From Citricoccus sp. CH26A (GTDB lineage: Bacteria; Actinomycetota; Actinomycetes; Actinomycetales; Micrococcaceae), in assembly GCF_000224415.1 (NCBI RefSeq), contig NZ_AFXQ01000008.1, forward strand, positions 62,001 to 126,000: a DNA stretch of 64,000 bases, written 5' to 3'. Numbering within the stretch: the stretch's first letter is position 1; each line of letters opens with the position of its first letter. Below the pieces are notes generated by a model. The model had not been told where the DNA came from, searched no databases, and saw only the letters and a list, made by a program, of their open reading frames with translations. Of this stretch, positions 43,052 to 44,791 are shown in pieces. Made by a program: the position numbers and the translations under genes.

Positions 43052-43771
43052 ATGACCGACCAGGCGACGAGGCTGCACGAGTTGCTCCTGGGCGCGGAGG
43101 ACATCAGCGGCTTCCTGGACGAGCTCGTCGCGGCCACGGCGCAGTCCCTGACCGGGCTGGCGGGCGAGGTGTGGTGCGCAATCCTGCTGGTCCGCCCGAA
43201 GCGACCCGCCACCGTGGCCTCCTCCGATCCTCGCGCCCAGGCCCTCGACGAGGTGCAGTACGACTTCGGTGAGGGCCCCTGCCTCACCGCCGCCCGCGAG
43301 GGCCGGTTGGTGTACCTGACGGACACCCTCGAGGAATCCCGCTGGCCCAGCTACCGCCAGGCGGCCGCCGAGGCCGGTGTGCGGTCCGCCCTGGGTGTTC
43401 CCCTGGACCTGGGCGGGGAGGCCGTGGCCGCCCTGGACGTCTACTCGGACCGCCCCCACGCCTTCGACGCGGACAGCATGGAGATTGTGCACAGGCAGGC
43501 GGTGGCCCTGTCCACCACGATGCGCCTGGTGGTCCGCATGGCCCGGCACCGGGACGTCGAGACCGACCTGCGGGCGGCACTGACGTCGCGGACCTCCATC
43601 GACCTGGCCGTGGGGATCCTGATGGGCCGGAACCACTGCTCCCAGCAGGAGGCGGTGGAGATGCTCCGGCACGCCTCCAACCGGCGGAACACCAAGCTGC
43701 GGGACCTGGCGGAGGAGCTCGTCCGCTCCGTGGGCGACGGCCGGGCGGCGGCCACGCACTTCGTGGACTGA
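43052..43771 (+). CDS. GAF-ANTAR RNA-binding antiterminator
   Basis: The protein has 239 residues. The N-terminal GAF domain (YDFGEGPCLTAAREGRLVYL, GVRSALGVPLDLGGEAVAAL) is followed by an ANTAR domain (ALTSRTSIDLAVGILMGRN, QQEAVEMLRHASNRRNTKLRDLA). ANTAR proteins bind dual RNA hairpins and prevent termination. The GAF part probably senses a small molecule or redox state. The ATG at 43052 follows a long purine-rich run (GAGGAGAGGAGACC). Its target RNA is unknown. Confidence 0.87.
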   Translation: MTDQATRLHELLLGAEDISGFLDELVAATAQSLTGLAGEVWCAILLVRPKRPATVASSDPRAQALDEVQYDFGEGPCLTAAREGRLVYLTDTLEESRWPSYRQAAAEAGVRSALGVPLDLGGEAVAALDVYSDRPHAFDADSMEIVHRQAVALSTTMRLVVRMARHRDVETDLRAALTSRTSIDLAVGILMGRNHCSQQEAVEMLRHASNRRNTKLRDLAEELVRSVGDGRAAATHFVD

Positions 43772-43860
43772 CCTCCCCCCGGGGTGCCCTCCTCCGGAGC
43801 CGGGGCCGTCCGCGCCCACGTCACGGAGGACTTCACTGTGACCCGCCCCACGGGGATGCC

Positions 43861-43866
43861 TATAAT
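43861..43866 (+). promoter_or_regulatory. consensus -10 TATAAT
   Basis: A perfect TATAAT hexamer stands out in this GC-rich DNA. A -35-like TGTGAC is 18 bp upstream (43837-43842). Transcription would start near 43873 and cover the small ORF and the amidotransferase-like gene, suggesting strong expression. Confidence 0.6.
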
Positions 43867-43922
43867 GGCCCGAGGTCGAGCCATGGCCGCGAAGATCTTT
43901 GACGACCCTCGAGGACGACGCC

Positions 43923-44167: not shown

Positions 44168-44791
44168 GTGGCGGGAATCGTCGGAGAGATCGCCTTCCAC
44201 GGGGACAAGGCCGACCTGGCCACGGTGTGCAGCATGGCCGAGGCCCAGACCCATGCCCCGTACGGATTCGGGACGAGCAGCTGGGGGTGGGTCGCCCTGG
44301 GACATCAGCGCCACGGGGCCTCGCCCGCACCCCACGGCGCGGCCCAGCCCCTCGCGGATGACCGCCTCGGCCTCGGACTCGTGCTCGCCGGGGAGGTCGC
44401 CAATCGCGAGTCGCTGCGGGAGGAATTGGACGGGGACTTCCCCTTCCGCGGCACAGGGGGCGCCGAGGTCGCCCTGGCCGCCTATCACCGGTGGGGGGAA
44501 CGCTTCGCGGCGCGGCTCGAGGGGTCGTTCGCCCTGGCGGTCGTGGACGCGTTCAGGGAGAAGGTCCTGCTGACCCGGGACGCGGACGGGACCATGCCCC
44601 TCTACCTCGCGCGGGGCCCAGGCCTCGTGCGCTTCGCCTCCGCCACCGAGTCCCTGCACGCCGTCAGCGGGCCGTACCCCTCGAACGGGGTCCACCCGGT
44701 CCCGCCGGGCACCGTCCTCCTGTTCGAGCCCTCGGGGCGTTCCGTCACGAGGGTGCTCGGGGATCAGGACGCGCAGGGAGTGGATGCCTGA
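44168..44791 (+). CDS. stand-alone class II glutamine-amidotransferase-like protein without catalytic residues
   Basis: The protein has 207 residues from the GTG at 44168. It aligns along its whole length with the N-terminal glutaminase domain of AsnB-type asparagine synthetases: ALGHQRHGAS for the LGHRRLSI motif, QPLADDRLGLGLVLAGEVAN for the QPM-NGEIYN region, EVALAAYHRWGERFAARLEG, and LLTRDADGTMPLY for the RDRxGxKPLYY motif. The catalytic Cys after Met is Ala (MAGIVG), the oxyanion Asn of NGE is Ala74, and the conserved Asp of SDTE is Gly98. It therefore should not hydrolyse glutamine. No synthetase domain follows. It may have become a binding or regulatory protein. Confidence 0.75.
   Translation: MAGIVGEIAFHGDKADLATVCSMAEAQTHAPYGFGTSSWGWVALGHQRHGASPAPHGAAQPLADDRLGLGLVLAGEVANRESLREELDGDFPFRGTGGAEVALAAYHRWGERFAARLEGSFALAVVDAFREKVLLTRDADGTMPLYLARGPGLVRFASATESLHAVSGPYPSNGVHPVPPGTVLLFEPSGRSVTRVLGDQDAQGVDA

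Follow-up and report, generated by a model that had tools for sequence, protein, structure and literature searches.

A stand-alone pseudo-glutaminase of Citricoccus: a class II glutaminase domain with its catalytic residues replaced and apparently maintained by selection

Features of the locus

The window, a stretch of 64,000 nucleotides of DNA from Citricoccus (Micrococcaceae), contains a short gene for a class II glutaminase domain that stands alone and lacks the residues needed for catalysis, referred to here as the pseudo-glutaminase. The features of the locus are collected in Table 1. The reading frame of 207 amino acids opens with a GTG codon at 44168, directly preceded by the Shine-Dalgarno-like sequence AGGGGG, and closes with a stop codon at 44789-44791. 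Codon use is near normal, as an earlier note on this DNA had stated, with a GC3 of 0.91 compared with 0.94-0.95 in the neighbouring genes.

Table 1. Positions of the pseudo-glutaminase gene and associated features in the window
Feature	Position	Strand	Evidence or remark
GAF-ANTAR regulator, upstream of the pseudo-glutaminase	43052..43771	+	Pfam; synteny, empty sites
Dyad TCAC-n-GTGA, possible operator	43833..43841	+	Overlaps the -35 hexamer
Putative sigma-70-like promoter GTGACC-17-TATAAT (10/12)	43838..43866	+	Expected in shuffles 0.0
Leader block GGCCGCGA-n5-T-n2-GACGA-n2-CTCGAGGA	43885..43915	+	Alignment of six upstream regions
Upstream ORF, 80 codons	43923..44165	+	Stop codon (TGA) ends 2 nt 5' of the pseudo-glutaminase start codon
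Stand-alone pseudo-glutaminase (catalytically dead class II glutaminase domain)	44168..44791	+	ORF, Pfam and NCBIfam matches, AlphaFold model

The product matches the Pfam families GATase_7 (PF13537; E = 6.8e-23, 81.4 bits against a gathering score of 25) and GATase_6 (E = 7e-21). The highest scoring NCBIfam model was TIGR03104 and not AsnB, with residues 1-166 of the protein matched to positions 1-168 of the 589 in the model (E = 5e-36); the score of 124.1 bits lies far below the equivalog cut-off of 570.1 bits. The earlier reading of the protein as the glutaminase domain of AsnB is therefore correct as to the class II fold, but the match is that of a truncated TIGR03104-type amidotransferase rather than an orphan AsnB domain.

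Alignment with intact relatives confirmed the three replacements that had been proposed from the sequence of the window protein: the catalytic cysteine is replaced by Ala2, the oxyanion residue Asn74 by Ala74 and Asp98 by Gly98. Gly75 and the arginine at alignment position 49 (Arg49; position 48 in the window protein) are retained. With alanine at position 2, the N-terminal cysteine nucleophile, which is exposed by removal of the initiator methionine, is missing, and on this sequence catalysis by the known class II glutaminase mechanism would be impossible. A mis-called start codon concealing the cysteine was considered and rejected, the frame upstream having no conserved start and the Shine-Dalgarno sequence being located at the start that was called. 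The frame terminates where the linker of full-length proteins starts, before any ATP-pyrophosphatase domain with the SGGxDSS loop that serves as the criterion for asparagine synthetase B, and the lack of a synthetase domain reported earlier was thus borne out.

Predicted fold

An AlphaFold model of the pseudo-glutaminase, built with 29 aligned rows, had a pLDDT of 86 and a pTM of 0.85, with values below 50 pLDDT at loop 51-56 and at the last few residues. The best solved relative was TsnB9 (Z 27.4), followed by AsnB of E. coli (1ct9; Z 25.5 over 191 residues, 2.6 Å) and by PurF and GlmS, each with a Z score of about 22. The class II glutaminase layout that the earlier note had seen in the residues is accordingly also predicted at the level of structure.

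Conservation of the losses in Citricoccus

Homologues of the pseudo-glutaminase were present in six of eight Citricoccus genomes, all of them stand-alone proteins with open frames, and were absent from G004 and G006. Identity to the window protein was 90% for G003, 60% for G002 and 47-50% for G007, G001 and G005. Two sub-lineages are distinguished below, clade A comprising the window genome (G000), G003 and G002, and clade B comprising G001, G005 and G007; the proteins of the two are only about 47% identical.

The cysteine is lost in all six homologues (Ala, Ala, Gly, and in three the codon is absent), and no orthologue with an intact nucleophile came to light among them. Asn74 is likewise lost in each (Ala, Ala, Thr, Asp, Asp, Asp), as is Leu50, which adjoins Arg49. 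Only two of the six, G000 and G003, have lost Asp98, which the other four retain; Arg49 is retained in clade A and replaced by proline in clade B, and Gly75 is present throughout. The earlier note had raised the question of whether the Ala/Ala/Gly pattern as such is conserved. The exact set is common only to the window protein and its nearest relative, G003; the alignment indicates that it is the inactivation, and not this signature, that is conserved among the homologues.

In a control set of 47 non-redundant full-length relatives, the cysteine was found in 45, the asparagine in 43 and the aspartate in 46, and all proteins that deviate at these positions belong to a single genus, g21 (Enteractinococcus). 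Since the three residues are near-universal in full-length proteins, their loss from the window protein cannot be attributed to chance or misalignment. A total of 76 alignment columns are near-invariant in the intact relatives; 34 of these are retained by all six homologues and 14 by none. The 14 columns include nucleophile, oxyanion and substrate-contact positions, among them the cysteine, the aspartate of RGPD, Leu50, Asn74, the threonine of SDTE, Met120, and both the leucine (L140) and the lysine (K143) of DRLGIKP. Some of the 14 presumably correspond to positions that line the ammonia tunnel or contact the synthetase domain in AsnB. Newly fixed residues in the stand-alone proteins are few (9 columns), and for this reason no new binding surface can be indicated.

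Selection on the gene

The ratio of dN to dS between G000 and G003 was 0.13-0.25, depending on the method used. With one-ratio codon models omega was 0.12-0.18 in clade A and 0.19-0.24 in clade B, and 0.15-0.21 over both, compared with 0.04-0.16 for three neighbouring genes, so that constraint on the pseudo-glutaminase is somewhat weaker than on the genes around it. A model with omega fixed at 1 was rejected (2dlnL of 62-311, that is, 31-156 log units worse), and neutrality was rejected within each sub-lineage separately. The six open frames at about 47% identity between sub-lineages, together with these omega values, exclude a simple relic, and the codon models indicate that the fold of the pseudo-glutaminase is maintained by purifying selection. 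The earlier note had named decay as the finding that would tell against its reading; no sign of decay is visible in the sequence.

Origin of the stand-alone domain

A survey of 295 genomes from the family and 396 from the order placed the remaining relatives that match the domain in open frames of about 590 amino acids or more. In a tree of the domain the six stand-alone proteins form one clade (support 100/98) beside full-length proteins of Micrococcaceae, and this clade persisted after the addition of four Enteractinococcus sequences (99/96). A grouping of clade A alone with Enteractinococcus was rejected by tree tests (p = 0.008) and that of clade B alone was borderline (p = 0.056); support of 66/54 is too low to establish Enteractinococcus as the sister of the stand-alone proteins. 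All six stand-alone proteins end at one point, the linker that precedes the synthetase. On a tree whose branches are long, one truncation in an ancestor of Citricoccus is the simplest reading. An ancestral amidotransferase of the TIGR03104 type, AsnB-like and composed of glutaminase and synthetase, would have lost its synthetase half, and the nucleophile and oxyanion residues of the glutaminase would have been lost before the Citricoccus species that carry the gene diverged.

The pseudo-glutaminase thus has in common with the TIGR03104 family a homologous glutaminase domain and a neighbouring position in the tree, but differs in lacking the synthetase domain, the cysteine, Asn74 and the partner gene, TIGR03103. 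No protein in Citricoccus scored above the cut-off for TIGR03104. The partner, a synthetase/acetyltransferase, had no match above cut-off in any of the eight Citricoccus genomes and was also missing from all 13 other genomes tested; membership of the N-acetylglutaminylglutamine pathway was rejected on these grounds. These 13 are Micrococcales genomes that have TIGR03104-type genes, and the lack of TIGR03103 makes the name N-acetylglutaminylglutamine amidotransferase doubtful for the TIGR03104-type proteins of these organisms.

Upstream region

The putative promoter is situated approximately 300 nt upstream of the pseudo-glutaminase and is conserved in G003. Each of the six genes is preceded, within 400 nt, by exactly one dyad of the form TCAC-n(1-3)-GTGA, in every case 5' of the leader block. 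Five of the eight genomes of Citricoccus gave a match to the leader block, a single one in each and only upstream of the pseudo-glutaminase, the block of G002 having diverged beyond the search pattern; it was found in none of 12 full-length relatives tested. The 3' end of the block, CTCGAGGA, resembles a good Shine-Dalgarno sequence for the short upstream ORF.

The upstream ORF varies in length (80 codons in G000, 60 in G003, 29 in G002, 45 in G007, 49 in G001 and 45 in G005), but in all six genomes exactly 2 nt separate its stop codon, TGA in five and TAA in G002, from the start codon of the gene, an arrangement found in none of 22 full-length relatives. The changes in length remain in frame and dN of the peptide is close to dS, from which it seems that translation up to the start codon is preserved and not the peptide itself. 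A selected small protein was therefore rejected and the ORF is treated as a leader, not as a product. A conserved RNA fold of the leader was also rejected, the z-scores (-1.4, -0.3 and -2.7) being inconsistent, and no Rfam family matched upstream of the pseudo-glutaminase.

Clades A and B carry the gene at different loci and yet have this 5' region in common, which indicates that the unit belongs to the gene. Such a dedicated unit, consisting of dyad, leader and upstream ORF, had escaped the earlier note and appears from the alignments to be conserved in both sub-lineages. The pseudo-glutaminase would then be expressed from its own promoter and regulated, and the position of the upstream ORF suggests that ribosomes may pass from it into the gene by termination-reinitiation.

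Possible function

A non-enzymatic role is the most likely one for a protein of this sequence, and the binding of a partner or ligand is the best inference as to its nature: the retained fold would bind another protein, or else a small molecule that is not glutamine, without catalysis. Taking the evidence as a whole, we consider it probable that the gene encodes a Citricoccus-specific pseudo-glutaminase, truncated, inactivated and under selection, which is furnished with its own promoter and a coupled leader and acts as a non-catalytic binding protein. The earlier suggestion of selection for a non-enzymatic role is upheld in respect of the kept fold and of purifying selection, but not in respect of glutamine sensing, which is considered below.

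A more specific and distinctly tentative version holds that the dead class II glutaminase forms a dedicated regulatory module, in which an operator-controlled promoter and a coupled leader ORF govern a cytoplasmic binding or switch protein, its target possibly being a GAF-ANTAR regulator or an amidotransferase. If this were so, it would to our knowledge be the first case of a regulatory role for a class II pseudo-glutaminase that stands alone.

Alternatively, the protein may be an auxiliary subunit that docks on a class II amidotransferase or an ATP-pyrophosphatase synthetase such as AsnB, modulating the enzyme or replacing a lost domain. The predicted fold is best matched by AsnB and TsnB9, packing of the N-terminal domains is a feature of the AsnB dimer, and four other GATase_7 proteins encoded in the genome could serve as partners. 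However, neither sub-lineage has a synthetase linked to the pseudo-glutaminase gene, and the columns lost include M120, L140 and K143, whose residues in full-length proteins, to judge from AsnB, probably point towards the tunnel or towards the synthetase domain. Docking of this kind is regarded as unlikely.

The neighbourhood of the gene raises a further possibility. In clade A, the GAF-ANTAR gene and then the pseudo-glutaminase are flanked by a two-component system on one side and a lactate permease on the other, while in G004, G006, G001 and G007 the response regulator directly adjoins the permease with neither gene between. Since G004 is nearer to the window genome than is G002, it has probably lost the gene pair, and the absence of the pseudo-glutaminase from G004 and G006 shows that it can be lost. 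Beside the locus in G004, ABC transporter ATPase and permease genes are tandem-duplicated (L143, 8574-16068), and the lactate permease match of the same genome (G004:C28:178803-180437) contains one in-frame TGA, representing either a possible pseudogene or a sequencing error. In clade B the pseudo-glutaminase is preceded by an MFS transporter and is not linked to a GAF-ANTAR gene.

The occupation of one site by the pair in clade A would accord with a partnership in which the pseudo-glutaminase acts as sensor for the GAF-ANTAR protein encoded next to it. There is precedent in the pairs AmiC-AmiR and NasS-NasT, in each of which an ANTAR RNA-binding protein is kept inactive by a protein that binds a ligand (PMC3795266). 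As in these pairs, a protein with a ligand-binding fold is encoded beside an ANTAR protein, here in clade A only, and full-length relatives adjoin a GAF-ANTAR gene in four genomes of g31 and in L045, the GAF-ANTAR protein of the latter being 60% identical to that of the window. The partners in the known pairs, however, have folds of a small-molecule-binding (transport) superfamily, and GAF-ANTAR proteins possess a sensory GAF domain of their own. Although GAF-ANTAR and pseudo-glutaminase genes co-occur in the same six genomes, this is weak evidence because the GAF-ANTAR genes of clade B are unlinked and distant, the best being only 44-45% identical. Dual hexaloop ANTAR hairpins were found in none of the upstream regions tested, and an ANTAR RNA target 5' of the pseudo-glutaminase was rejected for that reason. 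GAF-ANTAR genes are moreover so numerous in the family that adjacency carries little weight, and a partnership of this kind is retained solely as a rival, and quite an unlikely one. Across Micrococcaceae, GAF-ANTAR regulators have been strongly multiplied, being present at E 1e-30 in 144 of 290 genomes, some of which have many copies.

A slowly decaying remnant without function would explain the loss of the catalytic residues and of the synthetase half, the different replacements in the sub-lineages and the absence of the gene from two of the eight genomes. It is nonetheless improbable, given that all six frames have stayed open at such divergence, that neutral evolution was rejected for each sub-lineage by itself and that the upstream leader and start context are conserved; the codon-model test of selection largely refutes it. 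The glutamine sensor suggested by the earlier note, binding its ligand without hydrolysis, could appeal to the retained fold, to Gly75 and, in clade A, to Arg49, but the residues that bind glutamine are not conserved (Asn74 and Leu50 are gone in all six proteins, clade B has lost Arg49, and two members of clade A have lost Asp98), so that the glutamine site was rejected as the object of selection and such a sensor is highly improbable.

Comparison with known glutaminase domains

Beta-lactam synthetase and carbapenam synthetase (1jgt and 1q15) are AsnB-like enzymes with an inactive N-terminal domain. They resemble the pseudo-glutaminase in having the class II glutaminase fold (Z 20 and 15, respectively) without glutaminase function, but in them the inactive domain is joined to a functional synthetase, whereas that of Citricoccus stands alone. 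EgtC and the glutaminase domain of GlmS share the fold (Z 17 and 22, respectively) and are stand-alone or separable class II glutaminases, but both are catalytically active, with the cysteine in place. In human carbamoyl phosphate synthetase 1, the glutaminase-like S2 domain has been kept after loss of the catalytic cysteine (PMC4655335); this domain, however, is a class I glutaminase, differs in fold and forms part of a large enzyme.

The known inactive glutaminase domains are parts of larger enzymes, in which they can be regarded as structural leftovers. The pseudo-glutaminase, which stands alone, is under selection and has its own conserved upstream region, cannot be accounted for as a scaffold for a synthetase attached to it. 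What sets it apart from these domains is that it stands alone and yet is selected. A limited search of the open-access literature found neither an account of an inactive glutamine amidotransferase as a pseudoenzyme nor a description of this gene of Citricoccus. The gene is dispensable and has gene-minus relatives within the genus, and it offers a small, clean test case for the passage of an enzyme domain to a non-catalytic protein.

Partial loss of the same residues was observed in Enteractinococcus (L023, L025, L029 and L031), which also belongs to Micrococcaceae. Asn74 is lost in all four of these homologues and the cysteine in two, where it is replaced by serine or threonine; Arg49 is replaced by proline in two. 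Unlike the stand-alone proteins, they are full-length, with a synthetase domain and an intact SGGLDSS loop, and from their sequences they are probably enzymes that use ammonia or have been repurposed. The opposite of the situation in Citricoccus was observed in Cellulomonas marina (L073, 4001-5137), where a TIGR03104-type gene of 379 amino acids has intact glutaminase residues and an internal deletion that removes the P-loop of the synthetase.
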